Below, piece after piece: positions 8,072 to 36,046 of a DNA stretch of 64,000 nucleotides; position 1 is the first letter of the stretch, and every line of letters begins with the position of its first letter. The DNA is from Ralstonia sp. A12 (lineage in GTDB: Bacteria; Pseudomonadota; Gammaproteobacteria; Burkholderiales; Burkholderiaceae), in the NCBI RefSeq assembly GCF_000801955.1, contig NZ_JSZO01000002.1, positions 62,001 to 126,000 of the forward strand. Direction: 5' to 3'. The position numbers and the translations under genes were made by a program. The notes beneath the pieces are model-generated. The model had not been told where the DNA came from. It saw only the letters and a program-made list of their open reading frames with translations, and did no database searches.

Positions 8072-9667
8072 GTGAGTACGCTGCAGCAGGAGATCCGGCG
8101 CCGCCGGACGTTCGCCATCATTGCCCACCCGGATGCGGGTAAAACCACGCTGACTGAAAAGCTGCTCTGGTTCGGCGGCGCCATCCAGATGGCCGGCGCC
8201 GTGCGCGCGCGCAAGGCCAACCGCCATGCCACCTCCGACTGGATGGAGATGGAAAAGCAGCGCGGCATCTCGGTGACGTCCTCGGTGATGCAGTTCCCGT
8301 ACCAGAACGACGGCGGCGATTACATCGTCAACCTGCTCGACACCCCGGGCCACGAAGACTTTTCGGAAGACACGTACCGCACGCTCACGGCCGTCGACTC
8401 GGCCGTGATGGTGATCGACTCCGTGAACGGCGTGGAAGCGCAGACCATCAAGCTGCTCAACGTCTGCCGCCTGCGCCACACACCCATCCTCACGTTCATC
8501 AACAAGCTTGACCGCGAGGGCCGCGCGCCCATCGAACTGCTCGATGAAATTGAAGACGTGCTGCAGATCCAGTGCGCCCCGATGACGTGGCCGATCGGCA
8601 TGGGCAAGTCGTTCAAGGGCGTGTATCACCTCATCAACGACACGGTGCAGTTGTTCGACCCGAATGCCGACAGCGAGAAGGGTGCGACCGCCGGTCTGAT
8701 TCAAGGCCTCGACAACCCGGAGCTGGACCGCATCCTCGGCTCGCAAGCCGAAGAGCTGCGCATCGACATCGAACTGGTGCGCGGTGCCTCGCACACGTTC
8801 GACAAAGAGGCGTTCCTGGCTGGCAAGCAATGCCCGGTGTACTTCGGCTCGGCCGTAAACAACTTCGGGGTGCAGTCGCTGCTGGATGCACTGGTGGGCC
8901 AGTCGCCGGAGCCGCTGGCGCGCCCCACCGAGACGCGCGAAGTCAAGCCGCTGGAAGAGAAATTCACCGGCTTCGTCTTCAAGATCCAGGCCAACATGGA
9001 CCCGAAGCACCGTGACCGCATCGCCTTCGTGCGTGTGTGCTCGGGCCGCTTCGAGCGCGGCATGAAGCTGCTGCAGGTGTCGACCGGCAAGACGGTCGCC
9101 ATCAACAACGCCATCACCTTCATGGCGCAGGACCGCAATACCACGGAAGAGGCCTTTGCCGGCGACATCATCGGCGTGCCCAACCACGGCACGATCCGCC
9201 TGGGCGATGCCTTTACCGAAGGCGAGACGCTCAAGTTCACGGGCATCCCGTCGTTTGCGCCGGAATTCTTCCGCCGTGCGCGCCTGAACAACCCGCTGCG
9301 TCTGAAGCAGCTGCAGAAGGGTTTGCAGCAGCTGGCCGAAGAGGGCGCCACGCAGATGTTCCGCCCGCTGTCGTCGAACGATCTCGTGCTGGGTGCGGTC
9401 GGTATCCTGCAGTTCGACGTGGTCGCGCATCGTCTGGAGCACGAATACGGCGTCGATGCCATCTTCGAACCGCACGAATGCTCCACGGCCCGCTGGCTGC
9501 GCGGCAAGCAGGAAGACATTGACAAGCTGATTGACAAGGCCGGCCACAACGTGGCCCTGGATGGTGCGGGTGACTACGTCTACCTGGCACCGAGCCAGGT
9601 GAACTTGCGGCTGACACAGGAGCGCTTCCCGGACATCCAGTTCATGGAGACGCGGGAAATCGTCTAA
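8072..9667 (+). CDS. prfC: peptide chain release factor 3
   Basis: RF3 is a translational GTPase that recycles RF1/RF2 from the ribosome after peptide release. The protein is 531 residues, close to E. coli RF3 (529). The G domain shows the P-loop [10 protein letters not shown], switch region [20 protein letters not shown] and NKLD; a beta-barrel domain II and the RF3-specific C-terminal domain follow. The start is taken as GTG at 8072, because the family begins shortly before the [12 protein letters not shown] segment; an in-frame TTG at 7958 would add 38 unrelated residues. It stands alone and is closed by an intrinsic terminator. Confidence 0.97.
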
Positions 9668-9684
9668 GCGGGCGAGTCAAAAAG

Positions 9685-9712
9685 AAACGGGGCCAAGTGC
9701 CCCGTTTTTTAT
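9685..9712 (+). terminator. intrinsic terminator of prfC
   Basis: AACGGGGC at 9686-9693 pairs with GCCCCGTT, loop CAAGT, followed by a run of six T and TATT. An A-rich stretch on the left (9679-9687) means it could also terminate the convergent RpiR-family gene ending at 9712. Confidence 0.85.
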
Positions 9713-10677
9713 TACGACGTCTCAATCCCCAGCGCGGTAATCCACCGCTCGCGCCGCTCCAGCGCCTGCAATGAGCGCTTGCCAAGCCGCGTCGCCACCA
9801 GGTTCAGCAGTCCTTCGCAAAACACCAGATAGGCGCCCATGCTGTTGCTGAAGAAACTGCTCTCGTGTGGGATGAGGAAGGCGTGATCCGCCGGCGGCAC
9901 CAGCGGCGAGGCGAGGGTGTCGGTCAACGCAATCACCGAAAGCCCGGCCTGTTTGGCCGCGGCAGCGGCTTCGGCCACGCTGCGCGTGTATGGCGCCACG
10001 CTCGTCACGACCACCACGTCGCCCGGCTGCAGTTGCGCCAGCCCTTCAGCCACGCCAAGCCCTTGCGTATCGAGCAGGGCGACATCGGTACGGATCATGC
10101 CGAGGCCGTAGCAAAGGAAGCTGGCCAATGCACTGAACTGCCGCAGGCCATGAATGCGCACGCGCCGCGCGCTGGCCAGCAGGTGTGCGGCATCTTGCAG
10201 GTCCGTGGGCGAGAGCTGCGCAAGGCAGCGCTCGATATTGCCAATGGATTCACGCGCGAGTTGGGCCACCGTTTCCACTTCGGGCGACGTGTTCGCCGCC
10301 TGTGCCCGCGTCTTCTTACCAGCCACCAGCCGTTCGGCCTGCTGGCTGTAGAAGTGGCGATGACGCTGCGCGACGCTGTCGCGGAACACGTTCTGGAAAT
10401 CGGCAAAGCCCGCGTAGCCGAGCTTGGTCGATAACCGCGTCAACGTGGAGGCGTTGATATCGAGCGACGTGGCCAGATCGGTAATGGTGCGCACGGCGAC
10501 TTCTTCCGGACGCTCGATCAGCTTGGCCAATACCGTATGCGCCTTGGTGCCGAGCGACAGATCGGCCTCGTCGCGGCCGATGCGCAGCAGCAGTTCGCGC
10601 AGGCCGTCGACGCTGCGTGGCGGCTCGGCTTGCTGTGGTTCCGTCTTACGGCGTGACCTCTGTTTGCTGGTGTCCAT
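9712..10677 (-). CDS. MurR/RpiR family transcriptional regulator
   Basis: A 321-residue regulator with an N-terminal RpiR-type HTH (about 25-105, including TITDLATSLDINASTLTRLSTKLGY) and a C-terminal SIS sugar-isomerase-like domain (about 145-290, with RRVRIHGLRQFSALAS and a DVVVVTSVAPYTRSV segment). The SIS domain in this family binds a phosphorylated sugar or related ligand. It is the last gene of an operon with glnHPQ and a C45 hydrolase, and its start overlaps the end of the hydrolase gene, so translation is probably coupled. Three repeated palindromes upstream of glnH are plausible binding sites. An alternative start lies at 10716. Confidence 0.9.
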   Translation of the reverse strand: MDTSKQRSRRKTEPQQAEPPRSVDGLRELLLRIGRDEADLSLGTKAHTVLAKLIERPEEVAVRTITDLATSLDINASTLTRLSTKLGYAGFADFQNVFRDSVAQRHRHFYSQQAERLVAGKKTRAQAANTSPEVETVAQLARESIGNIERCLAQLSPTDLQDAAHLLASARRVRIHGLRQFSALASFLCYGLGMIRTDVALLDTQGLGVAEGLAQLQPGDVVVVTSVAPYTRSVAEAAAAAKQAGLSVIALTDTLASPLVPPADHAFLIPHESSFFSNSMGAYLVFCEGLLNLVATRLGKRSLQALERRERWITALGIETS

Positions 10678-11710
10678 TGACCATCCGATACCGGGCTGGG
10701 CGCCCGGGATGTTCATAAACCGCCCATTCTATGTGAGCCGGCAGGATGGTGATGTGGGCGGTGGCCAGCGTGTTCTCGTTGTCGGGGTCGTGTGGGTCTG
10801 CGCGGTAGATTGGCAGCGCCGCATCGCCCTGGTCGGCGAGGATGGCAAGCGGGTCGATGGCCTGACCGCTGGCCTGTGCATGCGCCAGCAACGCATCGCC
10901 GCGCGCTTGCCGGTGGCCGGAAGAGTCGGTGATGATCTGCGGCGCGTTAAGCATCGACGGATGGATCGCATGGTTGGCGTGCAGCGAGGGTTCGGTGATC
11001 TCGCGCACCGAGCAGCCGCGTGCGCCAAACTCAACGCTCAATAGCGCAGGGTGCGCGCACTGCCCCAGCGTCAGATGGAAACCGCCTGCGCGTGGGGATT
11101 CGCGTAGCAGCCACACGGCGGCGTCGAGCGTGGCGGCATCGAGCACCGCGCGCGTCAGCACCATGCGCGGCACGCCAGCCACCGCCTCAGTTGCCACATC
11201 CCGCAGGCGCAGGTTGTTCACGGTCATTGCCAAACCGGCATCAGTTACAGCAAAGGTGTGGCCGGGAAGCGAGCCCGGATAGACGAACGCCGCGAACCCG
11301 GGGCCGCCCTCGATGCGGCACTGCGCGATTGCGCAGTGCCCGGCAAAGCCAGGGTCGCCGTCTTCGTTGTGCGCAATCTGCCGCTGGCTGGTGTCGGGGA
11401 TCTGCACGGTGGTACAGCCGTCGTTGGTGGCGGCCCAGACATCGCCCCGGCAGTTCCACAGGAAGACGTCGTCGAACGGCAGTTGCAGCCCATCTGCCAG
11501 CCCTTGCAGTTCGGCCCAGATGCGCGGAAAGCGTTCGCGCACAAGTGCGGCCATGGCGTCTGCCGTTGCACTGCCGCGCCAGCGCATCACGCTTTGCCAG
11601 GACTCGGTCTTCAGTAGATGCTGGTGAACGGCGGCGGCGCCGAAGCGCCCCAGCTGTTGGCCCGCTTCAAACGGCGTGCCGGAAATCTCGACAAAAGCTA
11701 AGGACGGCAT
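10646..11710 (-). CDS. C45 family autoproteolytic acyltransferase/hydrolase
   Basis: A 354-residue Ntn-hydrolase of the acyl-CoA:6-aminopenicillanate acyltransferase (peptidase C45) type. These are precursors that cleave themselves before a cysteine, which becomes the N-terminal nucleophile; here the candidate is Cys99 in NDGCTTV, followed by the expected RQIAHNEDGDP segment (family pattern: His-Asn-Glu-Asp). Substrates are usually amide bonds of acylated amino acids or small peptides; the exact one is not readable. It is encoded between glnQ and an RpiR regulator, so it may hydrolyse an amide imported by, or feeding, the amino-acid transporter. An upstream in-frame start at 11770 would overlap glnQ; 11710 fits the family better. 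No signal peptide, so cytoplasmic. Confidence 0.88.
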   Translation of the reverse strand: MPSLAFVEISGTPFEAGQQLGRFGAAAVHQHLLKTESWQSVMRWRGSATADAMAALVRERFPRIWAELQGLADGLQLPFDDVFLWNCRGDVWAATNDGCTTVQIPDTSQRQIAHNEDGDPGFAGHCAIAQCRIEGGPGFAAFVYPGSLPGHTFAVTDAGLAMTVNNLRLRDVATEAVAGVPRMVLTRAVLDAATLDAAVWLLRESPRAGGFHLTLGQCAHPALLSVEFGARGCSVREITEPSLHANHAIHPSMLNAPQIITDSSGHRQARGDALLAHAQASGQAIDPLAILADQGDAALPIYRADPHDPDNENTLATAHITILPAHIEWAVYEHPGRPARYRMVNGHQQTEVTP

Positions 11711-11720
11711 GTGCCAGGAA

Positions 11721-12461
11721 TCATTCGACGTGTTGAAGGAAATCGCGCAGGCGCTGGTTGGGCGGCGCATCGAGCACGTTCACGGCAGGGCCATCGACGG
11801 CGATGTGGCCGTGCTCCATGAAGATTAGGCGCGTGCCGACCTTGCGCGCAAATGCCATCTCGTGGGTGACGACGACCATCGTCATGCCTTCTTCGGCAAG
11901 TGACTGCATCACGCGCAGCACCTCTTGCCGCAACTCGGGGTCGAGCGCGGAAGTGGGCTCATCAAACAGCATCAGCTTGGGTTTGACGGCCAATGCGCGC
12001 GCAATGGCGACGCGCTGCTGCTGGCCGCCGGACAACTCGCTTGGGTAGTGACCGGCGCGTGCTGCCAGCCCGACCTTGGCGAGCAGCTCGCGCGCCAGAT
12101 CTTCGGCAGCCTGCTTGCCCATGCCGCGTACCTGTCGCGGGCCGAATGCGACGTTCTCCAGCGCCGTCAATTGCGGGAACAGGTTGAACTGCTGGAAGAC
12201 CATACCGGCTTCCTGCCGGATCTCGCGCACCTTCTTTGCGCCGCCCAGCACGCTGATGCCGTCGACGATCAGGTCGCCACCGTCGATCTGTTCCAGCGCA
12301 TTGATGCAACGGAGCAGCGTCGACTTGCCCGAGCCGGAGGGGCCGATCAGCACGACCACTTCCCCCTTGATGATGTTCAGGTCCACGCCATCGAGCACGG
12401 TGGTCTGGCCGAAGCGCTTGGTGACGCGCTTGAATTGGACGATCGGGTCGTTGGTGCTCAT
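11721..12461 (-). CDS. glnQ: amino-acid ABC transporter ATP-binding protein (GlnQ-like)
   Basis: A 246-residue ABC ATPase that powers uptake through the permease encoded upstream. It shows Walker [10 protein letters not shown], the Q-loop in [11 protein letters not shown], the signature [15 protein letters not shown], Walker [14 protein letters not shown] and the H-loop VVTHEM. Sequence and length match E. coli GlnQ closely. The start at 12461 overlaps the permease stop as ATGA, indicating translational coupling. Substrate is probably glutamine or a similar polar amino acid, inferred from the whole system rather than this subunit. Confidence 0.94.
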
Positions 12462-13114
12462 AGCATCCGCATCCTCTTTTCCATCGTGCGCAGCCCGAAC
12501 GTGAGCGTGCCGATCATGCACAGGTAGATGATGGCCACGGCGGACCAGATTTCCACCGCACGGAAGTTGGACGCCATGATCTCTTGCCCCTGCCGCGTGA
12601 GTTCACCCACGCCGATGACGATGAACAGCGAGGTGTCTTTCAGGCTGACGATGAACTGGTTGCCCAGCGGTGGTGTCATGCGACGCAGCGCCACCGGTCC
12701 GATCACGAAGGCCAGCACGCGCCAGGCGGGCATGCCCAGCGCCAACCCGGCTTCCTTCAGCCCGCGCGGCACGGAGAGAAATGCGCCGCGCACGATCTCG
12801 GCAATGTAGGCGCCCGAGTTGACGATGATCGACACCACCGCGGCGGTCATCGCATCCACGCGAATGTGCAGCAGTATGGGCAGCGCAAAGTAGATGAACA
12901 TCACCTGCACGACGATGGGCGTGCCGCGCACAAACTCGACGTAGGCGAAGGCGATCTTCTGGCACAGCGCATTGCCGTAGGCGCGCATCAGGCCGAATAG
13001 CAGCCCGGTGAGCACGCCGCCGACAAGGCCAACGACTGTGATCCACACCGTCAGCCGCGCGCCCTGCAACAGCGCGGGCAGCGCGTCGACCACAACCGAC
13101 AGATCAAACTCCAT
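12458..13114 (-). CDS. glnP: amino-acid ABC transporter permease (GlnP-like)
   Basis: A 218-residue inner-membrane permease of the HisM/GlnP type with about five hydrophobic segments and the conserved EAA loop ([29 protein letters not shown]). Regions such as [19 protein letters not shown] and [21 protein letters not shown] are nearly the same as in E. coli GlnP. A single permease is encoded, so a homodimer is expected. It follows the substrate-binding gene by 33 bp and overlaps glnQ by four bases. Confidence 0.94.
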
Positions 13115-13147
13115 AAACGATCTCCAGCCTGTGTTGCATGAAAGGCA

Positions 13148-13894
13148 TCACAGCTTGGCCGGCTCGGTGCCGAACCACTTCTTGTAGATCGCCGTGTAGC
13201 GGCCATCGGCCTTGATCTTTGCCAGCGCTGCGTTGACCTTGGGCACCAGCGGGCTGCCCTTGGGGAAGGCAATGCCGTACTGGTGCGCCATCATCTGCTG
13301 GCCCACCGCTTTCACGCGGCCCTTGCCGATGGTGTTGATGTAGTACAGCACGTTGGGCGTGTCGTGCATTGCGGCATCGACGCGGCCAGTGGCCAGCTCC
13401 AGATAGGCGTTGTCGATGTTCGGGAACTGGCGCAGGTCGGTGCCGGCAAAGTGCGCCTTGGCGTAGTCGGCGGCGGAGGTGCCGGTCTTGATGGCGAGCG
13501 ATTTGCCCTTTAGGTCATCCGCGCCCTTGATCGTGCTGGCCGCCGGCACCATCAGCGTGAAGCCGCTGTCGTAGTAGCCGTCGGAGAAGTCGACGATCTT
13601 TTTGCGCTCGTCTTTGATGGTGATGCCGGCCAGCGCCACGTCGACATTGCGCGTCTGCAGCGCTGGCAGGATGCCGTTGAAGTCCATCGGCTGCAGCTTG
13701 TAGTCAAGCTTGGCGTCCTTGGCGATTTCCTTCCAGAGGTCGATGTCGAACCCGACGTACTGGTCGCCCTGCTTGAATTCGAACGGCACGAAGGCCGTAT
13801 CACATGCGACCAGCAGCGTCTCAGCCCGTGCGGCCTGACCAGCAAAGGACGCCGCGACGAGCACTGCCGCGATCAGTTTTGCAGCGAATTTCAT
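13148..13894 (-). CDS. glnH: periplasmic amino-acid-binding protein (GlnH-like)
   Basis: A 248-residue periplasmic solute-binding protein that delivers its ligand to GlnP/GlnQ. A signal peptide (about 1-23, ending QAARA) precedes the mature domain. The start of the mature part, [22 protein letters not shown], and the later [22 protein letters not shown] closely follow E. coli GlnH, so glutamine is the best guess for the ligand. The start at 13894 has an AAGGGG Shine-Dalgarno; the in-frame start at 13945 would spoil the signal peptide. It is the first gene of a five-gene operon and is preceded by three palindromes at 13930-14001. Confidence 0.94.
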
Positions 13895-13929
13895 GTGCAA
13901 CCCCTTGAAATGTGGATGTGCTTGATGAG

Positions 13930-14001
13930 GCAAGCAGATTTGCATTGATGAAATACACGCAAATCTGTTTGCGAAGTATCGGTGGGAGCAAATCAGGTTG
14001 C
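13930..14001 (-). promoter_or_regulatory. three evenly spaced palindromic operator candidates upstream of glnH
   Basis: Three copies of GCAAR-N4-YTTGC lie at 13930-13943 (GCAAGCAGATTTGC), 13959-13972 (GCAAATCTGTTTGC) and 13988-14001 (GCAAATCAGGTTGC). Their starts are exactly 29 bp apart. Each is an imperfect palindrome, and copies 1 and 2 match at 13 of 14 positions in inverted orientation. They fill the region between the glnH start and the terminator of the mdc operon. The RpiR-family protein encoded at the operon's end is the likeliest binder. Confidence 0.6.
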
Positions 14002-14027
14002 AACATCGGGTATACCCGTCAGGGCAT

Positions 14028-14055
14028 AAAAAAACGGGGCGTTGGAGCCCCGTTT
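14028..14055 (-). terminator. intrinsic terminator of the mdc operon
   Basis: On the minus strand, AAACGGGGC (14055-14047) pairs with GCCCCGTTT (14040-14032) around a six-base loop, followed by a seven-T run. It lies 20 bp past the mdcH stop and isolates the mdc operon from glnH. Confidence 0.88.
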
Positions 14056-14074
14056 CGTTGATGACTGGTCTGTC

Positions 14075-15010
14075 CTATCTGCCGTCGGCGCGCGCTTGGC
14101 GCTGTATCCGCACCCGCACCGCATCCAATCCGCCGCCCACATCCAACACCGCATCGTCCGCAAACACGCCTTGCGCGAGACGCGCCAGCGCGCCCCCGCC
14201 CGGTACCTCCACCGCCATGCGCGCACCGCGCTCAAGCGCATGGCGTAGCGTGTCGTGCCAGAGTACCGGCCGCGCCATATTCCATGTCAGGTCTTCGACG
14301 ATGAGATTCGCGCGGAAGAGCGCCCGCGCGCGGCTGCTGCTGACGTAGGTGAGCTGCGGTGCGTGTGGCGTGACCTTTGCAGCAGCAGCGGTCAGTTCAG
14401 CCGCCTGCACATCGAGCAATCGGCAGTGCGACGGCACGGCCATGCACAACCGCGTCGCCGTTGATGCGCCTGCCGCCTGCGCGAGCGCCATGACTTGTGT
14501 GAGTGCCGCATCGCTGCCCGCCACGACAATCTGTCGTTCTGCATTCAGGTTGGCGACATAAGCTGGCGTTGCCGGCGAGTTGACTTGCGCGACGACGGCG
14601 GTGACTTCGGGTTCGGTCAAACCGGCCGTGACGGCCATGCCATAGCCGCTTGGATACGCGTCCTCCATGAGCTGCCCGCGCAGGCGGACGAGGCGCAGCG
14701 CATCGCTGAAATCCAGCACGCCCGCCACGACCGCCGCGGGCCACGCGCCGATGGATAGGCCGGCTACCATGTCCGGCGCAGCGTCCTGGCGAACGAGCGT
14801 GCGTGCCACCGCCACACCGGCAATCAGCAGGCAGAGTTGAACCGCCACGGTCGACCGCAATGCCTCTGCGGTATCGAGCGTGAGCGGATCCGTACCCAGC
14901 ACATCACCGGCTTCGGCCAGTGTTTGTGCGACGGCCGGGTCATCAGGCAACGCGTGAAGCATGCCCGCACGCTGGCTGCCCTGGCCGGGGAACATGAAGA
15001 GGATGCTCAT
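14075..15010 (-). CDS. mdcH: malonate decarboxylase epsilon subunit, malonyl transferase
   Basis: A 311-residue malonyl-CoA:ACP transacylase homologue. MdcH loads malonyl onto the ACP-bound prosthetic group to prime malonate decarboxylase. It begins with the family motif FMFPGQGSQ and has the nucleophile serine in GLSIG (near residue 93), with CMAVPSH carrying the expected histidine near residue 200. The start at 15010 overlaps the mdcG stop as ATGA. It is the last gene before the operon terminator. Confidence 0.93.
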   Translation of the reverse strand: MSILFMFPGQGSQRAGMLHALPDDPAVAQTLAEAGDVLGTDPLTLDTAEALRSTVAVQLCLLIAGVAVARTLVRQDAAPDMVAGLSIGAWPAAVVAGVLDFSDALRLVRLRGQLMEDAYPSGYGMAVTAGLTEPEVTAVVAQVNSPATPAYVANLNAERQIVVAGSDAALTQVMALAQAAGASTATRLCMAVPSHCRLLDVQAAELTAAAAKVTPHAPQLTYVSSSRARALFRANLIVEDLTWNMARPVLWHDTLRHALERGARMAVEVPGGGALARLAQGVFADDAVLDVGGGLDAVRVRIQRQARADGR

Positions 15011-15642
15011 GCCACGTCGCTCCACGGGTCTGCGACGAGGCGGGGGCCGTGGTCGGTCTTGAGCAACGTCTTGTGCGGTGACGCTAGCCAATCGCGTAGT
15101 GCGAAACCACCGTGGCCGGTATCGATCTGCAGATCGACACGGCATTCGATGTCGTCCAGCAAGCGCACAAGGTGATCACGCTGTGCAGCCGATGGAGCAT
15201 GCGGCATGCGTACGACAAGATCGAGATCGCTATCCGCATGCAGCACGGGCAAACCGGTGGCGAGCGCAAAGCCTGCACCGCCAGTTGGGCCCCATGCCCA
15301 GCCGAGTGCGTTGAGTTCCGTTGCCAATGCACGCACGGTGCGGAGTGCCGCAAACGGTGCGTTGTCGGCGATGGCGACGGTGGTGGTCGCCAATGCTTCG
15401 GGTGTGATCACGCGTGTGACCGTGCTGGCAGCCGCGGTGGCCGCACAGCGTTCGCTGCGGCCACTGCCGCGCAGGCCTACCGGGATCGACCCATCGGCAC
15501 CACGCGGCGCACGGCGCACGACGACCGGCGCACCTTGCCGGCATGCCGCAACGGCCCAATCCGGCAAAGGTGCACCGTCCGCTGTCGTGGGCATCTCAGA
15601 TACCCAAAGCAGATCGTGCGCACGCAGCGGCATGTGTGTCAT
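15007..15642 (-). CDS. mdcG: malonate decarboxylase holo-ACP synthase
   Basis: A 211-residue nucleotidyltransferase. MdcG attaches the 2'-(5''-triphosphoribosyl)-3'-dephospho-CoA prosthetic group to the serine of MdcC. Visible features are the N-terminal RAHDLLWV, the glycine-rich WGPTGGAGFALATG and the metal-binding-type acidic motif DSDLDLVVR (near residue 150). The start at 15642 overlaps the madM stop (ATGA); an ATG at 15633 is also possible. It works with MdcB, which makes the prosthetic-group precursor. Confidence 0.92.
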   Translation of the reverse strand: MTHMPLRAHDLLWVSEMPTTADGAPLPDWAVAACRQGAPVVVRRAPRGADGSIPVGLRGSGRSERCAATAAASTVTRVITPEALATTTVAIADNAPFAALRTVRALATELNALGWAWGPTGGAGFALATGLPVLHADSDLDLVVRMPHAPSAAQRDHLVRLLDDIECRVDLQIDTGHGGFALRDWLASPHKTLLKTDHGPRLVADPWSDVA

Positions 15643-29099: not shown

Positions 29100-30479
29100 G
29101 TGGCAACGAAATCATCCGGCCTGTCAAAAGCGGTCGCCCATTGCCGGCACGCTTTACGGCTTGCGCGCTTTCCAGCGGGGTGGGGCCGTCAACATTCAGA
29201 GGGCAGCGACCAGACCCTGCTGTACTTCGGCTGCCTGACCCTGTTCATCGCGCTGGCATCGCCGGCGGGTTATCTGGTGGACATCCAGACGTCGTACCTG
29301 CTCAAGAACCAGTTGCATGCCACAGCGACGCAGATCGCGATGTTCCGGCTGGTAACGGGTATCCCGGTGTATCTGGCGTTCGCGTTCGGCCTCGCGCGCG
29401 ACCAGTGGAACCCGCTGGGTTTGCGCGATCGCGGCTTCTTCCTGATATTCGCGCCGATCACCGCACTGGCACTTGTCGGGATGGCGTTGTCGGGGCTCTC
29501 ATACCCGGCGCTGCTCGTGGGGATGTTGCTCGCGATGTTGTCGTCTCGGTTTGTCGCCGCGGCGTACCAGGGGTTGATTGCACTGGTGGGCCAGGAGAAG
29601 CGCATGTCCGGGCGCCTGAGCGTGCTGTTGAATATTGTCGGCACGCTGCCTGTCGTTGCGAGTGCGTTTGCCTCCGGATACGTCTCTGATCATCTTGCTC
29701 CGAAGCAGGCCTTTCTCTTGGCGGCGGCACTCACGTTGCTTGTGGCCATGCTGGGGCTATGGAAGCCCGTTTCCGTCTTCGGTCATGCTTATGAGAAGCC
29801 GCAAGCCAGGGGTGTGGATTTCGTGGGGAATGTCAGGCGACTGGTGAGGCATCGGGCTGTGTATCCGGCGGTGCTCATCTGCTTTCTGTGGAACTTCGCG
29901 CCAGGCGCGGCCACGCCGCTGCAGTTCTATCTGACCAACGAACTGCATGCATCGGATTCCGTCTATTCGTACTACAACGGAATCTTTGCTGCCGCGTTCA
30001 TCCCGACCTTTCTGTTGTATGCCGTGCTGTGCAAGACCGTTCCGCTGAACAGGCTGCTGTGGTGGGGAACGATCGTCGCCGTGCCGCAAATGGTGCCGCT
30101 GGCATTCATTCACTCGGCCGACCTCGCGCTCGTGCTGGCGGCACCGATCGGGCTGATGGGCGGCGTCGCCACGGCAGCGTACTTCGACCTTGCCATGCGG
30201 TCCTGTCCGCCAGGGCTGCAAGGCACGTTGATGATGTTGGTGGATGGTGTGCTTGCGCTCTCTGCACGTGCCGGCGATCTGCTGGGCTCACGAATCTACA
30301 GCAGCAGCCCAACGCACGGATTCGCGTACTGCGTGATCGCGACAACCGTGGTGTACGCGCTGATTCTGCCCCTGATCGCGCTGGTGCCGAAGGGGTTGAT
30401 TGCCACGAGGGATGGTGAGCCCAATCCGGAAGTCGAGGCTGAGGTGGTGAGCGAGGTTCGGGAAACGGAGCCGACTTAG
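29100..30479 (+). CDS. MFS-type membrane transporter
   Basis: A protein of about 459 residues with about 12 hydrophobic segments in two blocks. The first half has the signature SRFVAAAYQGLIALVGQEKRMSG region, and the second half FLWNFAPGAATPLQFYLTNEL. It resembles BT1/folate-biopterin-like MFS proteins, but the substrate cannot be assigned. The start is uncertain: GTG at 29100 has an AGGGTGAG Shine-Dalgarno; GTG at 29091 and ATG at 29028 are in frame. It ends with an acidic cytoplasmic tail. Confidence 0.82.
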   Translation: MATKSSGLSKAVAHCRHALRLARFPAGWGRQHSEGSDQTLLYFGCLTLFIALASPAGYLVDIQTSYLLKNQLHATATQIAMFRLVTGIPVYLAFAFGLARDQWNPLGLRDRGFFLIFAPITALALVGMALSGLSYPALLVGMLLAMLSSRFVAAAYQGLIALVGQEKRMSGRLSVLLNIVGTLPVVASAFASGYVSDHLAPKQAFLLAAALTLLVAMLGLWKPVSVFGHAYEKPQARGVDFVGNVRRLVRHRAVYPAVLICFLWNFAPGAATPLQFYLTNELHASDSVYSYYNGIFAAAFIPTFLLYAVLCKTVPLNRLLWWGTIVAVPQMVPLAFIHSADLALVLAAPIGLMGGVATAAYFDLAMRSCPPGLQGTLMMLVDGVLALSARAGDLLGSRIYSSSPTHGFAYCVIATTVVYALILPLIALVPKGLIATRDGEPNPEVEAEVVSEVRETEPT

Positions 30480-30809
30480 ACGCCGAACCGAATGTGCCAA
30501 CAGCTGTTGCCTGCATGCAATTGACAAGGCTTGCGCGCCTCTCTAAGCTCCGCCCTCAATTTCCGTTCCACCTCTATTTCGATTGGTGAATAAAGTGCCC
30601 GTAGCTCTCCGTCACATCGCCTGACGCCGACGACTACCAGTTTCCTGGTATCGCGGTTGCCTGCCCGTCCGTACTGAACGCAGTGCCGTTCTGGATCGGA
30701 ACACTTCGGCAGGCGCGGTTCCGGGAGCGCGCGCTACACCCAATCTTTCGCCTCTCCCTTTCCGTTTTTCCGCGTCGTCGGCTTTTCCCACATTGGCTTG
30801 GAGAAAACC
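30480..30809 (+). promoter_or_regulatory. upstream region of the RNA-repair operon with sigma-70-like promoter
   Basis: No gene lies in these 330 bases. A good promoter candidate is TTGACA at 30521-30526 and TAAGCT at 30544-30549, spaced by 17 bp. It lies about 260 bp before the RNA ligase start, leaving a long leader. A perfect TACCAG-tttc-CTGGTA hairpin (near 30637-30652) falls within that leader. Confidence 0.45.
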
Positions 30810-31715
30810 ATGACGCTGGATCATCGCGCGCTTGCGCAATCACTCGACCTGTTTCGCTATCCGCGCACGCCGCATCTGGAAGGTTCGCGTTTGCAGGACG
30901 GTGATGCTGGTTACGAACACATACCCTATCGCCCGCTGCACGGGCAGTACCTCGTGGTCGAAGAGAAGATCGACGGGGCCAACACGGGCATCAGTTTCAG
31001 TGCCGCTGGCGAATTGCTGCTGCAGTCCAGAGGCCACTACCTGGTAGGTGGTGGGCGGGAGCGCCAGTTCAGCTTCGTCAAGGCGTGGGCTGCGGCGCAT
31101 GAAGCCTGGTTGCTGGAGCGCCTGGAAGACCGCTACGTGATGTACGGCGAGACCGTCTCCAAGAAGCACGCGGTTTTCTACGACGCGTTGCCTCACCACT
31201 TCTTCGAGTTCGACGTGCTTGACCGCCATACGGGGGCGTTCCTGTCCACCGCTGCGCGTCGCGTGCTGCTGGCAGATGGACCGGTGCTTTCCGTTCCAGT
31301 GTTGTACGAAGGAACGGCTCCGGCCACGCTCACTGCGCTCAAAGCGCTGTTGCGGCCGTCATTGGCCAAGACGGCGCATTGGCGAGGCGCCTTCGAGCAG
31401 ACCGTGCAACGAGCCGGGCTCGATCTGACGCTCGCATGGCGGCAGTGCGACAAGTCGGATCTGTCGGAGGGCCTGTACATCAAGGTGGAGATCGACGGTG
31501 AGACGGTCGGTCGATACAAGTGGGTTCGGCAGGATTTTGTGCAAGCCATTTTGGAGTCGGAGAAGCACCATTCCGAGCAGCCGTTCATCCCGAACTTGTT
31601 GTTGCCTGGTGTCGATCTGTATACGCCACGTCCCACGGTAACGTGGGACACATTGCGCGCAATCGCAGCGCCCACGGGCGCGTGGGCGGATGCCGTGCAA
31701 GAGAGGAGATCATGA
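30810..31715 (+). CDS. RNA ligase family protein
   Basis: A 301-residue ATP-dependent RNA ligase-like enzyme. The adenylation lysine motif KxDG occurs as EKIDGANTGI with Lys53, followed by YGETVSKKH (motif III-like), EGLYIKVE (motif IV) and GRYKWVR (motif V), in the proper order. Such ligases seal RNA 3'-OH/5'-phosphate ends through a covalent AMP intermediate. A GGAG Shine-Dalgarno supports the ATG at 30810. Its stop overlaps the start of the HD-Pnk gene, so a healing enzyme and a sealing enzyme are made together. Confidence 0.88.
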   Translation: MTLDHRALAQSLDLFRYPRTPHLEGSRLQDGDAGYEHIPYRPLHGQYLVVEEKIDGANTGISFSAAGELLLQSRGHYLVGGGRERQFSFVKAWAAAHEAWLLERLEDRYVMYGETVSKKHAVFYDALPHHFFEFDVLDRHTGAFLSTAARRVLLADGPVLSVPVLYEGTAPATLTALKALLRPSLAKTAHWRGAFEQTVQRAGLDLTLAWRQCDKSDLSEGLYIKVEIDGETVGRYKWVRQDFVQAILESEKHHSEQPFIPNLLLPGVDLYTPRPTVTWDTLRAIAAPTGAWADAVQERRS

Positions 31716-32848
31716 TGCGCTACGAACACTTGCGGGCCCTGGTGCCCGCACCGGGCATGTCGCCCGATTTCCAGGCGTGTCTTGCGGCGTTTCCCGTGCT
31801 TGAACTTGCCAAGACGACGCCGCAGGACCCGAGGTATCACGCCGAAGGTGATGTCTGGACCCATACGCAGATGGTGGTTGAAGCGCTGCTGGCGCTACCG
31901 GGCTATCAGAGTGCCACGCGTGCCGAGCAGGAGACGGTATTCCTGGCGGCGTTGTTGCATGACATGGCCAAGTACAGCACCACCGTCATCGATCCGGTGA
32001 CGGGGGCTATCGGTCAGCCCGGGCATTCGCGCAAGGGCGCGATTGATGCGCGTATCGCCCTGTGGGATGCCGGTGTGCCATTTGATGTGCGGGAAGCCAT
32101 CAGCCGGCTGATCAGTGTGCACCAGCTGCCGTTCTTTGCACTGGAGGGGGCGCGTCGAGGCTCGCCGGAGTTTCTTGTGCGCGAGCTTTCCTGGCAGCTC
32201 AGCATCCCGTTGCTCGCCATGCTGGCAGAGGCTGACATGCGTGGCCGCATCTGCGGCGACAGCGCGAGCGTGCTCGACAACATCGAGCTTTTTCGGGAGA
32301 TCGCTCGGGACGATGGATGCTACGGTCAACCGAGGGCCTTTGCTGATGCTCATACCGCGGTCAGCTACTTCCGAGGTGCGGAAATTCATCCGGACTTCGC
32401 GCTCTTTCAGGAGGAAGGCTCCAAGGTCATCGTGATGTCGGGCTTGCCGGCGTCTGGCAAGAACACATGGGTAGCCGCCAATCACCCGGACCTCCCAGTT
32501 GTCTCTTTTGACGATGCGCGGGAAGAGTTGAGACTGCGCCATGGCAAGAATGAAGGCATGGTGGCGCATCGGGCTGTGGATCGAGCGAAGGAGCTGCTGC
32601 GTGCCAAGAAGCCGTTCGTGTGGAATGCAACGAACCTTAGCGAGCTGATGCGCAAGAAGACGCTTGATCTGCTGTTCGCATACGGCGCAGAAGTTGAGTT
32701 GGTGTACCTGGAAAAACCACGTACCGAGCTGTTGCGTCGGAATTCGAAGCGGGATACCTCGCTGACTAACAAGACGCTGGAAGGCATGCTTCATCGGTGG
32801 GATTTGCCTCTTCCTACTGAAGTGCACCGTATCCAATACCTGGTGTAG
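31712..32848 (+). CDS. HD phosphohydrolase-polynucleotide kinase fusion (HD-Pnk)
   Basis: A 378-residue two-domain protein. The N-terminal HD domain (about 30-215) has H51 in VWTHTQ, the HD pair at 83-84 in LLHDMAKYST, H105 in PGHSRKGA and an Asp near 174. The C-terminal P-loop kinase (about 235-378) has Walker A GLPASGKNT (244-252) and an SFDD motif near 265-268. Runella HD-Pnk, of the same architecture, removes 2',3'-cyclic or 3' phosphates and phosphorylates 5'-OH RNA ends. Here it overlaps an RNA ligase gene by four bases, so together they could heal and seal broken RNA. The role in this organism is inferred. Confidence 0.88.
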   Translation: MMRYEHLRALVPAPGMSPDFQACLAAFPVLELAKTTPQDPRYHAEGDVWTHTQMVVEALLALPGYQSATRAEQETVFLAALLHDMAKYSTTVIDPVTGAIGQPGHSRKGAIDARIALWDAGVPFDVREAISRLISVHQLPFFALEGARRGSPEFLVRELSWQLSIPLLAMLAEADMRGRICGDSASVLDNIELFREIARDDGCYGQPRAFADAHTAVSYFRGAEIHPDFALFQEEGSKVIVMSGLPASGKNTWVAANHPDLPVVSFDDAREELRLRHGKNEGMVAHRAVDRAKELLRAKKPFVWNATNLSELMRKKTLDLLFAYGAEVELVYLEKPRTELLRRNSKRDTSLTNKTLEGMLHRWDLPLPTEVHRIQYLV

Positions 32849-32860
32849 AGGATGCTCCTG

Positions 32861-32882
32861 AGGAGAGGCGTCTTCTCTTTTG
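32861..32882 (+). terminator. weak intrinsic terminator after HD-Pnk
   Basis: AGGAGA (32861-32866) pairs with TCTTCT (32871-32876, one G-U) around GGCG, followed by CTTTTT-like sequence. Outer arms TCCTGAG (32856) and CTCAGGA (32886) could extend it. It begins 12 bp past the HD-Pnk stop. Confidence 0.35.
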
Positions 32883-33006
32883 GGGCTCAGGAACGTAACC
32901 GTGATGGAGTCGCCCTTGGCGCTGAGAGCTACGTTCCCGATTGATCGGGTGAACCTACGATGTACCCGGCGCTGTATCGAAAAGGTTGTCGAGGGGGATA
33001 TCTTTC

Positions 33007-33447
33007 TCAAGAGAGACCAAATACGCGGCCTATACAGCTAAACACCGCTACAGTGAAGCCGCAGAAAACAAGGCTCGCGACGAAAAAGAAGAAGAGCCTG
33101 GCCCGCGCAGCAACGCCTTCTTCACTCAAATAGCGAGCACTAAGCACGTAGTAGCCAAAATAGGACTTCGCTTCTTCCTGATTGGCATCGCTCCTCTTGG
33201 ATGCAATCACCTCCAGGAAGTTGAACAGCACGCTGACCCAGCAAACCAGAAACGATATGGCGCCGGAGATCAGGACTCCCAGTGCCAGGCTTCTGGGTAC
33301 CCGGCCCATTTGAGGGAATGTGCTGCTTACCGATGGCGGGGCGCCCGACATCCCCGCCACGAACCCCACAACAAAGAGCAGCGATGCCATCAGAAGCATG
33401 GCGCAGACGTACCTGCGTAGATTGAAGCGTTGCCGCACCGCTGTCAC
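33007..33447 (-). CDS. hypothetical three-helix membrane protein
   Basis: A 146-residue protein with three hydrophobic segments (about 13-35, 54-78 and 118-141) and a short cytoplasmic-type charged loop (KRSDANQEEAKSYFGYYVLSARY). It has no recognised domain. The GTG start at 33447 is backed by a strong GGAGG Shine-Dalgarno. It sits in a stretch of hypothetical genes that looks less GC-rich than its surroundings, with the RNA-repair pair convergent on its left. Confidence 0.65.
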   Translation of the reverse strand: MTAVRQRFNLRRYVCAMLLMASLLFVVGFVAGMSGAPPSVSSTFPQMGRVPRSLALGVLISGAISFLVCWVSVLFNFLEVIASKRSDANQEEAKSYFGYYVLSARYLSEEGVAARARLFFFFVASLVFCGFTVAVFSCIGRVFGLS

Positions 33448-33573
33448 GTTTTTCCTCCAGGCCTCACTGGCCAGATGGCAGCAAGTTCACGGTTAGCAGT
33501 CGAGTGGCTACTCCAGAGAGAACCGTACGCCACGACGATGGTCACGGCGCGGCCATTGCAAAAGCCCGCTGAC

Positions 33574-34437
33574 TCAGCGCTTGGGGCGGTTTGCAAACCA
33601 GTCGTTCTCCACAGGCCCGGAGACTGTGAAAACTGGACGCACTCGGCAAGGCTTCACTGCAGCCCAGCTACCAACCGCAAGGTGCAACAACTGCGTTCTC
33701 ACTTCGGCCGAGCCAATGCCCTGCGTAGAGAATTCGGCACGAGGGTTAAGCCAATTGATATTGAGGTCGTCCTCGCAGACATACGGGCCAATCACGTGGC
33801 TGTAAAAGGTCAGGTGGTCAAAGAAAACAAGGGACATCGCTGTCGGCAATCGTTGACTGCCCGTATCAACCGGCACACCCGACGTAACGAGTACCTCGCG
33901 AACGTAAGCGCCAAGATGTCCGTAGTGCCCGTTTTGGCTGAGATACCCAGCGATGCGTACTCGAACCGGCTTGTTGCTTCGTTGGACGTTATCCAGCCCT
34001 ACATCGCGCCATGTACGCCTACCGAATGGGGTAATCCACCATTCGCCCTCTCCAGCTTCAGCGTCGGTTGGCCAGAAAGCACTCTTTTCAAAGCCTTGTG
34101 ACCAAACGCCTTCTAGCTCGACAGCGTCGTACCCGTATGCCGCCAAAAGCGCGTCGCGTTCGGACGGGTAATCACGCCAGTAGGTTTGACCGTGCGTATA
34201 CGCGTCCTTCATTAGGTCCGAATCTGTATAAATCCCACCAGATGGATGGGTAAAGCCTTGAAAGAACCAGACCGAATACGCTTCGCGCAGTGACAGGCCT
34301 GAGGACAATCGTTCAGCCTTCGTCTGCGATTGTGCGAAAGCATCTGCGTATTGGAGGACGACATCGGGGACTTCCCCGGCCGTCGCCTTTCCAGCGAGCG
34401 CGCCTACGATCAAAATCGTCGAGATCAGCCGAAACAT
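33574..34437 (-). CDS. hypothetical secreted protein
   Basis: A 287-residue protein with a signal peptide (about 1-20, ending KATAG), so probably periplasmic. It is rich in Trp and Tyr (for example EGEWWITPFGRRTWRDVG) and has two cysteines in the mature part (about 215 and 267). No domain was recognised. The start at 34437 has a GGAAGGA Shine-Dalgarno. It lies 126 bp upstream of the three-helix membrane protein gene on the same strand, so the two may form a unit. Confidence 0.65.
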   Translation of the reverse strand: MFRLISTILIVGALAGKATAGEVPDVVLQYADAFAQSQTKAERLSSGLSLREAYSVWFFQGFTHPSGGIYTDSDLMKDAYTHGQTYWRDYPSERDALLAAYGYDAVELEGVWSQGFEKSAFWPTDAEAGEGEWWITPFGRRTWRDVGLDNVQRSNKPVRVRIAGYLSQNGHYGHLGAYVREVLVTSGVPVDTGSQRLPTAMSLVFFDHLTFYSHVIGPYVCEDDLNINWLNPRAEFSTQGIGSAEVRTQLLHLAVGSWAAVKPCRVRPVFTVSGPVENDWFANRPKR

Positions 34438-34588
34438 CGCGTTTCATCCTTCCAGTTCTTAGATGGCCATTGTGGGTGATCTGCTTTTCTGGCCTGCAGC
34501 GGACTTTCGCAGCGCTATTGGGGCGCGTCAACTGCCGAAGGCTAATCTAGTTGAACTGGCCGGCACGCGTGAGCGTGTTTGGGTTGAT

Positions 34589-34777
34589 TTAACTGTTGGG
34601 CATGACCCCGCGTGGACGCAGCGCCGCCGCGACCGCCTCCCAGAAATCGCCTTCGTCAAGGCGAGCATCTTCTTTGGCTTCCGTCGCAAGCTGCTTCGCA
34701 AATAGATAGCCGTTGCGTCCGTGGTCAGCTTCAACCTGGTGCGCGACCCTGCTCACTTCAATCCAGTCAACCGTCAT
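34589..34777 (-). CDS. small conserved-type hypothetical protein
   Basis: A 62-residue soluble protein with two predicted helices. It shows a pattern (HGRNGYLFAKQLATEAKEDARLDEGDFWEAVAAALRPR, in part) that I associate with small Burkholderiaceae proteins of unknown role, often in accessory regions. The Shine-Dalgarno is weak. I include it because of this pattern and because overlapping frames look non-coding. Confidence 0.5.
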   Translation of the reverse strand: MTVDWIEVSRVAHQVEADHGRNGYLFAKQLATEAKEDARLDEGDFWEAVAAALRPRGVMPNS

Positions 34778-35031
34778 ATCGGCTCGTCCGAAGTTCGCTT
34801 TGCCGACCCGGCGCGGGTTGCCGAAATAGGTCGGGTGGGGTGATGGGTGGTGTGAGTGATTGCTTTGCGGCTATGCAGTTGAATGTTTGCATCTGGCCGA
34901 GAGCGAACTGCCAACGCTGTGCCGGCCCCCTCCTGACCAAAGCAAGACATTCGACGTGGCGCTCGGAAATCGCCAACAATACGGGGCCGATTGATGCCTC
35001 GCCTTCTCGCAAACTGCCAGGAATTCGATAC

Positions 35032-35454
35032 GTGTGCTCTGAGAATGACGTGCCCTTGCATGAACGCGTGCTCCTTGTCGAGGGCCGCGCTTCGGAGGCA
35101 GCACTGGCTCATATTCGACGCGGACTCCCGCAAGATAAGCCAGCCAACTCCGAAGTCTTGTTTGTTTCCTTCTCGTACGCGGATATTCCACTGGGGCATA
35201 CGTTCTCGATGGTGTTTCCTACAGACGCTCCAGAAATTGTCATACGGACAAGCTGCCAAATCCTCGCGGTAACGCAACAGTACGCCGAGCCATTTGGCGG
35301 AATTCCTCATGGCTGGAAAACCATTTGCCTTGTGAAGTTCGAGGGCGGTATCCCCGATGCAATTGCCTCACTGCCATTGGTCAGTGGATGGTACGAGAAT
35401 CGGAATACCGTTTCTCTTTGCGACGAGGAGACCTGGCGGTTGAAAGCTGGGTGA
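35032..35454 (+). CDS. hypothetical protein, uncertain start
   Basis: A 140-residue frame whose sequence reads like a folded soluble protein (VLFVSFSYADIPLGHTFSMVF, GGIPHGWKTICLVKF) although no family was recognised. GTG at 35032 is preceded by AGGA nine nt upstream; the frame is open further left to 34612 but that part overlaps the 62-residue gene and looks non-coding. Lower confidence because nothing but codon pattern and the Shine-Dalgarno supports it. Confidence 0.4.
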   Translation: MCSENDVPLHERVLLVEGRASEAALAHIRRGLPQDKPANSEVLFVSFSYADIPLGHTFSMVFPTDAPEIVIRTSCQILAVTQQYAEPFGGIPHGWKTICLVKFEGGIPDAIASLPLVSGWYENRNTVSLCDEETWRLKAG

Positions 35455-35668
35455 TTGCAATGGTTGCGACCCTATCGAGAGATACGAAACCGGGCGATTG
35501 GGAGAATTGGCAGCCAACCTGTTCTTCCCGGAGCGTTCGCGAGCTGGGAGGCCGGTGTCAGCCTCCCCCATCATGCAGACTCCATGACTCTGCAGGGCAT
35601 CAAGAACGCTTTGTAGGTTGAGTGTGGTCGAGCGGCGCGCGCCGGCTCCCCCGCTTTCACCAAGCGCA

Positions 35669-36046
35669 TCAGGTGACCGTCAACATGCCATTCATCGTCT
35701 CATGCCCTGTGCCGCAGAAGATGTCGCACAGAAAATCAAACGTGCCGGTCTTGTCAGGTGTGAGCGCTAGGCGCACGGTCTGCCCCGGCACCACATCCGC
35801 ACGCACATTGAAGTCGGGAATCGAAAAGCCCATCAGGATGTCCTGCCCGGTCAGCTCGAACACCACGGGCACGCCGCGCTTGAGCGTGATCTTGTCGGGC
35901 GTGAAGGTGAACTTGCGCGCATGCACGCGAATCACCTGCGGGCCTTCGCCGTGCGCGACGCAGGCGAGTGCGGCACCGGCGGCCAGCACGGTGAACTGAC
36001 GCAGCGCCAGGCGCCGCTTGGGGTTGTGTGCAATGAGGGGGCGCAT
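35669..36046 (-). CDS. cupredoxin-domain (COX2-like) exported protein
   Basis: A 125-residue protein with an N-terminal signal (about 10-32) and a cupredoxin domain like that of cytochrome oxidase subunit II. The C-terminal copper-binding loop is present as C107-x3-C111-x3-H115-x2-M118 (LCDIFCGTGHETM). The upstream histidine ligand expected in subunit II is replaced by Met72 in DILMGFSIPDF. It would act in the periplasm, possibly in copper binding or electron transfer. Its ATG follows the stop of the metallophosphoesterase gene by one base, so they are co-transcribed. Confidence 0.85.
   Translation of the reverse strand: MRPLIAHNPKRRLALRQFTVLAAGAALACVAHGEGPQVIRVHARKFTFTPDKITLKRGVPVVFELTGQDILMGFSIPDFNVRADVVPGQTVRLALTPDKTGTFDFLCDIFCGTGHETMNGMLTVT

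Follow-up and report, generated by a model that had tools for sequence, protein, structure and literature searches.

The locus described here raises two questions, namely which broken ends its enzymes repair and when the cell calls on them. It lies in a 64,000-nucleotide (nt) stretch of Ralstonia sp. A12 (contig NZ_JSZO01000002.1, positions 62,001 to 126,000), hereafter the window, and consists of a gene for an RNA_ligase-domain protein followed by a gene for HD-Pnk. HD-Pnk proteins combine an HD phosphoesterase with a polynucleotide kinase and are often encoded beside a ligase gene; the enzyme of Runella slithyformis was reportedly described by Munir and Shuman in 2017. The cassette is of a known kind, that of the Runella and Deinococcus HD-Pnk operons, and we know of no natural substrate or trigger for such operons. 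Here we describe a conserved leader RNA containing a short upstream open reading frame (uORF) that precedes the pair. Our reading, held with slightly more confidence than doubt, is that the two genes form an operon for the healing and sealing of broken ends, and that translation of the uORF in the leader gates that of the operon, the sign of the switch being the weakest link. Coordinates are those of the window, and features lie on its plus strand unless stated otherwise.

The ligase gene (30810..31715, from ATG at 30810 to the TGA stop at 31713-31715) encodes 301 amino acids that match the Pfam family RNA_ligase (PF09414) with E=2.6e-31; Pfam finds no further ligase domain in the protein. Across all 31 aligned sequences, K53-x-D55-G56, R74, G113-E114, E133-x-D135, E220-G221, and K237 are invariant, and we take these residues to be the KxDG lysine motif and motifs III, IIIa, IV, and V. 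An earlier sequence-only reading had named a KIDG lysine motif with later motifs in order, which this invariance bears out. Its second proposal, a fusion of an HD phosphohydrolase with a 5'-kinase, also stands. Pfam, a profile search, and alignment identify the 377-residue product of 31715..32848 (378 residues from an alternative ATG at 31712; stop at 32848) as HD-Pnk. Pfam recognizes an AAA_33 P-loop domain (E=1.5e-17) and an HD domain that, at 19.7 bits and E=0.0011, falls below its cut-off of 22. In the HD part, H50, D83, and D174 are invariant among 30 sequences and H82 is conserved in at least 90%, presumably as the H...HD...D metal residues; in the kinase part, G248-K249, D266, R269, and R346 are invariant in the same set and supply the GK, the catalytic Asp, and the Arg of such a kinase. 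The profile of these 30 sequences matches the solved structures of L-seryl-tRNA(Sec) kinase (1.4e-17), entry 4gp7 (2.8e-15), T4 Pnk (1e-10), and, over the HD part, poly A polymerase (2.7e-10). Entry 4gp7, which is labelled a metallophosphoesterase in the structure listing, is presumably the clostridial Pnkp kinase. The two genes overlap in ATGATG, with a ribosome site, AGAGAGGAGA, at 31700-31709 before the second start, an arrangement that supports the translational coupling proposed earlier.

The pair recurs widely. A scan of named genomes yielded at least 80 loci with an HD-Pnk relative, making 88 with the first eight loci, and these range over Burkholderiales, Pseudomonas, cyanobacteria, planctomycetes, Verrucomicrobia, and myxobacteria. 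A blastp relative of the ligase is present in 64 of the 88 (the Ralstonia locus included; these are the loci examined rather than a census) and missing from 24, partly because contigs end. Since no other neighbor cluster within 7 kb of HD-Pnk occurs in more than nine loci, the ligase and HD-Pnk behave as a unit, as the sequence-only reading had supposed. The linked ribotoxins for which it proposed to compare neighborhoods, having conjectured a device that perhaps counters tRNA-cutting toxins, were not recognized in the 88 loci; only 8 of the 20 smaller clusters were identified (one example each, all generic or unrelated families), so that a minority of loci may have one. Among known defence systems, PADLOC returned a Cas3c match to HD-Pnk alone (E=0.035) and nothing for the ligase.

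If the activities are as predicted, the HD domain would remove a 2',3'-cyclic or 3' phosphate, the kinase would phosphorylate the 5'-OH, and the ligase would reseal the ends. Repair would most likely act on RNA, and we regard RNA as the likely main substrate. That the enzymes act mainly on broken DNA with 3'-phosphate and 5'-OH ends strikes us as unlikely, although several observations point that way. The ligase profile matches solved structures weakly, and ATP-dependent DNA ligases come first (E=0.0012), followed by archaeal PAB1020 (0.008) and a Naegleria RNA ligase (0.023), an order that tells against RNA. In Deinococcus, a role in DNA repair has been put forward for the genes DRB0098-0100, which irradiation induces strongly (PMC1997131), and the HD-Pnk there is reported to contribute to survival of ionizing radiation and mitomycin C (cited in PMC9146567). 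An HNH-like third gene in some relatives would also fit DNA. The membership of the ligase in the RNA_ligase family, with its lack of any additional Pfam ligase domain, argues in the other direction, as does a leader linked to translation, which suits RNA damage better; for Deinococcus DRB0100 itself, a passage of PMC1997131 records adenylylation and neither DNA nor RNA ligation.

The HNH-like protein, of about 125-170 amino acids with the pattern CxxC...DAHH...N...HH, was seen in 6 of the first 88 loci, and others were found beyond those. Its gene lies between the ligase and HD-Pnk genes in loci L013, L018, and L205, adjoins HD-Pnk in L034 and the ligase in L065, is fused to a ligase at the C-terminus in L005 and at the N-terminus in L061 and viral L236, and lies nearby in viral L230 and L231. 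The protein is hardly visible to Pfam, with an HNH-family match for one of four tested (E=0.047), and is probably hidden in the ligase neighbor cluster through the L005 fusion. A single-sequence search, run with no positive control, found none in the genome that holds the window.

As to when the operon is used, the leader suggests that its trigger is a change in translation. In the window, a promoter-like site (TTGACA-N17-TAAGCT, 30521..30549), picked out from the sequence and by a TTGACN comparison, is followed by the conserved leader, which the leader model R1 matches over 30575..30821 with 153.5 bits, this sequence being in its training set. A ribosome site, GGTGA (30585..30589), precedes a uORF of nine codons (30595..30624) with a GTG start and a TGA stop, reading VPVALRHIA, in which the first residue would be Met. 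One nucleotide after the stop begins strand 1, GCCGACGAC (30626..30634), the 5' strand of a helix that we term P1. The 3' strand of P1, GTCGTCGGC (30774..30782), makes up the first part of strand 2, and an anti-Shine-Dalgarno (anti-SD) segment, TTTTCCC (30783..30789), recognized by folding and by co-variation with the ribosome site, makes up the second. Strand 3 (30798..30814, from folding and sequence) comprises the ligase ribosome site and start codon. The sequence-only reading had given the operon its own -35 and -10 elements; the promoter-like site is there, but a consensus scanner passed none (0), and the leader downstream had been missed. In 29 of 38 leaders, TTGACN is accompanied by a second hexamer whose end lies 38-46 nt ahead of the uORF, a count that takes the best of many positions and has no control.

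The same order of elements, that is, ribosome site (GGAG or GGTGA), uORF, strand 1, strand 2 with the anti-SD, and ligase ribosome site with its start, is found before this ligase in 38 leaders with 22 different uORFs from Burkholderiales, Pseudomonadaceae, and Pectobacterium; several of the 38 come from sister species and are almost identical, and L134 repeats the Chitinimonas prasina locus L031. The pattern was defined on the first 23 leaders (16 different uORFs). Among later loci, it is present in all 12 from Pseudomonadaceae at 61% ligase identity or above (L180-L191; L148, which is L022 again, was excluded), in L133, and in the plasmid locus L206, and these 14 leaders contribute six new uORFs, the remainder being repeats. 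Every uORF has 8 or 9 codons (27 nt in 25 leaders, 30 nt in 13), with GTG (33) or ATG (5) as the start and TGA (29) or TAA (9) as the stop, and 34 of the 38 are preceded by at least four of five matches to GGAGA. The uORF starts as GTG-CCC, or with ATG, or has TCT as codon 2. Past Met-Pro/Ser the encoded peptide shows no conservation, which suggests that what counts is the act of translation. Little of the uORF nucleotide sequence is left in L184, which keeps its length, stop position, and P1. In all 38 leaders the uORF stop falls 1-3 nt before P1, an open reading frame (ORF) and P1 having been conditions of the search, and P1 spans 68-207 nt around a variable loop. By eye, a hairpin directly after strand 1 and a second, GC-rich hairpin seem recurrent.

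Three comparisons bear on whether this layout could arise by chance. When uORF interiors were shuffled, the share of trials whose first in-frame stop fell 3 nt or less before P1 was 0.5-5.4%, depending on the representative. All 15 lineage representatives have their stop there, and the distance from their starts to P1 takes all three phases. In P1, 98.6% of cells are paired across 33 distinct leaders and three positions are changed on both sides (17 cells), and none of 500 shuffles reached this count of doubly changed cells or the covariation score. This alignment was fitted to the model, and an earlier free alignment of 16 sequences gave the same picture. Finally, both P1 (15 representatives) and the anti-SD:SD pairing (11 representatives, L023 not among them) pair better within than across leaders, with 0 of 20,000 permutations in each case, figures that are not strict probabilities since the representatives were picked after the leaders had been inspected and share ancestry. 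In 16 of the 17 leaders tabulated, the pairing of the anti-SD with the ribosome site of the same leader is better than its average over the other sites. At the level of sequence, comparison establishes the genes and their motifs, the uORF, P1, the anti-SD pairing, and their conservation.

The leader also appears specific to its place. Over 2.85 Mb, the total for the two strands (L001, L002, L003, and L089, being copies or short, were left out, and L012, from Burkholderia puraquae, and L101 are the same DNA), a strict scan gave 21 raw matches, of which 14 had a downstream start, and all 14 lie directly before this ligase. Searched at E<=5 against 71 loci, model R1 gave 22 matches, 21 of them before the ligase (13 belong to the training set and 6 are closely related to it); the remaining one, at 8.8 bits, is not credible. 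Under stricter filters, 399 genomes of the order gave five strong matches; among the seven genomes whose ligase reaches 57% identity, five have one. Matches with E of 1e-3 to 0.5 occur in the 399 genomes too. No credible copy of the leader was found in these scans anywhere other than before this ligase. Conversely, 37 of 46 proteobacterial ligase loci have an R1 match at E<=0.05 (L013, whose contig begins inside the ligase, was left out). We conclude that the leader is very probably a real cis-acting element linked to translation of the uORF.

Other identities for the element were considered. In the window (30400-35700), no known Rfam (15) family matched at E<=1, and in ten relative loci Rfam gave two matches, one of 24.6 bits where the threshold is 95.5 and one of 22.9 bits where it is 50, neither coinciding with a leader on that leader's own strand; the RNA family is apparently undescribed. 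A transcription terminator fits poorly, given that P1 spans 68-207 nt and that L004, L031, and L133 lack a T-run after P1 and have a tract matching the ribosome site instead. A DNA operator would not be expected to have arms so far apart with no fixed spacing, and because G-U pairs occur in P1, the helix appears to act as RNA. On viral contigs, 17 pattern matches were found, and none passed the strict scan.

How the leader might work follows from the two partners open to strand 2 (30774-30789), which could pair either with strand 1, forming P1, or with strand 3, covering the ligase ribosome site and AUG; pairing with strand 1 is incompatible with full closure of the start. Ribosomes reaching the uORF stop would cover strand 1, leaving strand 2 to close strand 3 and the operon off. 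Were few ribosomes to start the uORF, or were they to stall in its first codons, strand 1 would be free and P1 would form as the RNA emerges, strand 2 being made before strand 3. With P1 formed, the ligase start would open, and the coupled HD-Pnk gene would follow. Folding of 17 leaders (two of them identical; five with no clear ribosome site were left out) is consistent with this order of events, in that the mean unpaired probability of the AUG is 0.08 with strand 1 masked and 0.60 with P1 formed, and it is higher with P1 in 16 of the 17. In the window's leader the corresponding values are 0.01 and 0.52. The leader thus resembles uORF attenuators such as toiL and the erm leaders: a short, translated-looking ORF lies before the gene, judging by its sequence, and a structure over the ribosome site with a competing helix beside the uORF is indicated by comparison and folding, with L004, L023, L029, and the five leaders that have no clear ribosome site as exceptions.

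Several observations weigh against a gate of this kind. Even with P1, the ligase ribosome site is mostly paired (mean unpaired probability 0.25 vs 0.11 with strand 1 masked; 0.23 vs 0.20 in the window). The AUG of L004 is slightly less open with P1 (0.47 vs 0.58), the ribosome site of L029 does not open with P1, and in L023, from a soil Pseudomonas protegens, the anti-SD finds a better partner in the ribosome sites of other leaders than in that of L023. Folding of 22 leaders with no constraint favors the closed state in most, and P1 must therefore win by folding order or with help; its probability under those conditions is 0.00 in the window, 0.72 in L009, and 0.83 in L017. Five leaders (L014, L015, L017, L018, and L032) have, by eye, no clear ribosome site after P1, and nine of the 46 proteobacterial ligase loci have no leader by R1, one of which, L137, keeps a similar uORF by eye. 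As for P1, the number of doubly changed pairs alone was reached in 22 of 500 shuffles, a weaker result, and a +3 shift still leaves 54% of cells paired, strand 2 having an internal three-base repeat. Because L004, L023, and L029 contradict parts of it, our confidence in a gated repair kit is slightly reduced. What the enzymes do, that they do it on RNA, which way the switch turns, and which stress it would sense are what we infer, and for the sign, with a translated uORF meaning off, the scales tip only a little past the midpoint.

Of 39 cyanobacterial ligase loci, 36 could be used (two others were too short and one lacked a start). In ten of these (L150, L162, L164, L036, L040, L041, L043, L048, L066, and L207, where L164 and L066 are the same leader), an ATG runs straight into TAG or TAA, and CAATCAA or a close variant of it follows after 9-10 nt. 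The complement of this strand is found 18-24 nt ahead of the ligase ATG, where TTTGATTG can pair with CAATCAAA or a similar strand. The layout of a start-stop uORF did not pass in 25 of the 36, among which L155, L156, L157, and L161 look alike by eye and failed the test. These sequences suggest that cyanobacterial leaders may use the same principle with other sequence. Locus L152, in which the same ATG-TAG is followed by a strand, CCTCTCCA, that pairs with the ribosome site TGGAGAGG itself, 9 nt before the ATG, is a further point against a uniform sign, since its switch would be wired the opposite way.

L152 leads to a rival with the same leader and the opposite sign, in which the operon is switched on by a ribosome that stalls on the uORF or terminates there, a sign known from toiL-topAI and from leaders induced by antibiotics. 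In L152 an occupied uORF would free the ligase ribosome site, the AUG of L004 is no more open with P1, and toiL works in this manner according to a passage of PMC12121999. Of 17 proteobacterial leaders tested, 16 speak for the reverse, their AUG being freer when P1 forms than when strand 1 is masked, and we consider the opposite sign rather unlikely.

A second rival makes more of the geometry, in which a stem has its base 1-3 nt beyond the end of a short ORF and is closely followed by a start codon. P1 would bring the uORF stop to the ligase start, and terminating ribosomes would cross the looped-out stretch, as in plant pararetroviruses. The five leaders that have a start codon after P1 and, by eye, no clear ribosome site would fit such a shunt; in two of them, L014 and L018, a second ORF of five codons lies between P1 and the ligase start. 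We know of no bacterial precedent for ribosome shunting, which counts against it, and a shunt has no need of the anti-SD:SD co-variation. Shunting also requires, as a passage of PMC3291615 states, a short ORF before the stem and a pyrimidine stretch just after it; the first is present here, whereas the tract after P1 in L004, L031, and L133 is not a pyrimidine run and matches their own ribosome sites as an anti-SD would. We consider shunting a doubtful explanation. Less probable by far is that the leader itself is a sensor or substrate of repair, a cut in the loop altering the folding until the operon's own enzymes reseal it, as feedback. The long, variable loop held by P1 and the end repair encoded by the operon make the idea conceivable by inference, and it leaves the conserved uORF and its ribosome site unexplained.

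Returning to a gate that a translated uORF closes, a broader proposal can be made, tentatively and with more doubt than trust. An undescribed RNA family might open repair genes whenever damage, such as cut tRNAs or cut rRNA, stops ribosomes from finishing a uORF of 8-9 codons with free sequence. The layout would have emerged or been kept in two phyla, cyanobacteria having a minimal uORF of start and stop codon alone, and a shunt-like passage may operate where the ribosome site is lacking.

The operon is part of a 5.2-kb accessory segment at a changeable site, as far as sequence comparison goes. By blastn of window positions 20001-46000 against five same-genus loci, a 5.19-kb stretch of lower G+C content (0.58; 30487..35675) has no match in any of the five. 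Two of these hold about 70-75 bases in its place and three hold other genes, which by eye are regulator/acetyltransferase-like, ArsR-like, or beta-propeller-like; it is this absence from the relatives, with different replacements, that marks the segment as accessory. A transporter gene and a cupredoxin gene flank the site. HD-Pnk is single-copy in the genome and was found in none of 15 other same-genus genomes searched, whereas the flanking transporter gene is present in 6 of 16 (its own included). In other relatives, plasmids also carry the ligase/HD-Pnk pair, and HD-Pnk and this class of ligase occur on large viral contigs. Two minus-strand ORFs, 33007-33447 and 33574-34437, share the segment with the operon and have no Pfam match above the cut-off.

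The earlier remark that no RtcB was in view is correct for the window and incomplete for the genome, which has RtcB at two other places, on contigs C37 and C27 (L210; L211/L212), the window being on C12. The operon is therefore an additional repair route and not the sole one. RtcB is not in the operon, as it would be in one of rtcBA/RtcR type; RtcA and RtcR were not searched for.

The partnership of HD-Pnk with its ligase is not fixed. The ligases of L005, L019, L049, L073, L074, L076, and L078 share 23-31% identity with that of the window and belong to another class. In two of these loci, HD-Pnk itself is 71% (L005, 4900-7164) and 65% (L019, 7291-9137) identical to the window's, beside a ligase of the other class at about 25%, and the Deinococcus locus also has a short ligase. 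Judged by these sequences, the presumed healing enzyme has exchanged sealing partners. In Pseudobacteroides (L054, 6067-9104), two ligases, of which one is of the window's class and one has a T4 Rnl2 C-terminal domain, stand in a row with HD-Pnk. In Burkholderia aenigmatica (L016, ~8128-15152), a 7-kb element interrupts HD-Pnk near codon 42; it carries three genes that by eye resemble a site-specific recombinase set and brings a second HD-Pnk gene, 70% identical to that of the window.

The cassette is thus known in kind, and its wiring is not. To our knowledge, no leader RNA, uORF, or attenuator has been reported for HD-Pnk/ligase operons, and we found no publication on a uORF leader controlling RNA repair in a search outside which most subscription journals lay. 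If the proposed gate is correct, cells would sense RNA damage through what it does to ribosomes and not through the broken ends, in contrast to the RtcR route. The leader further adds a new RNA family, which can serve as a marker in the search for such operons, and a leader that reads translation would provide a direct and cheap assay of when repair kits switch on.

Compared with the Runella-type operons, the window encodes the same enzyme fusion and adds the leader RNA and its uORF. Deinococcus radiodurans DRB0098-DRB0099-DRB0100 (L209) likewise joins HD-Pnk, 29.9% identical to the window's, to a ligase in one operon, and differs in being induced by radiation, in the length of its ligase (about 210 codons, shorter than here), and in having DRB0099 as a third gene, macro-domain-like and annotated as TIGR02452. 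The Pnkp1-Rnl-Hen1 system also combines bacterial healing and sealing enzymes, there against ribotoxin damage, and does so with three proteins, including Hen1, as a passage of PMC4411300 describes. For the window, the bacterial Pnkp family TIGR04075 gave 16.4 bits against a cut-off of 750, and Hen1 was not searched for. The rsr-yrlBA-rtcBA operon similarly places RNA repair under a damage signal, with RtcB/RtcA chemistry and with RtcR binding tRNA fragments, according to the portion of PMC7790460 that treats it, whereas here a leader RNA with a uORF takes that place. The shunt leaders of RTBV and RTSV share the short ORF before a stem and the main start after it, and are eukaryotic plant-virus leaders with no Shine-Dalgarno pairing (PMC3291615, in part). 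The general plan has a precedent in the Escherichia coli uORF toiL of topAI-yjhQ, which, in the account that a part of PMC12121999 gives, senses many translation stresses through a hairpin blocking the ribosome-binding site, so that in both cases a short uORF is joined to an RNA structure over a ribosome site. In that account toiL itself pairs with the ribosome site and controls a toxin-antitoxin pair, whereas here a separate strand after the uORF stop would compete for strand 2 and the controlled genes are a predicted repair pair. Reading translation stress through a uORF for the sake of RNA repair would be a new use of a known plan.

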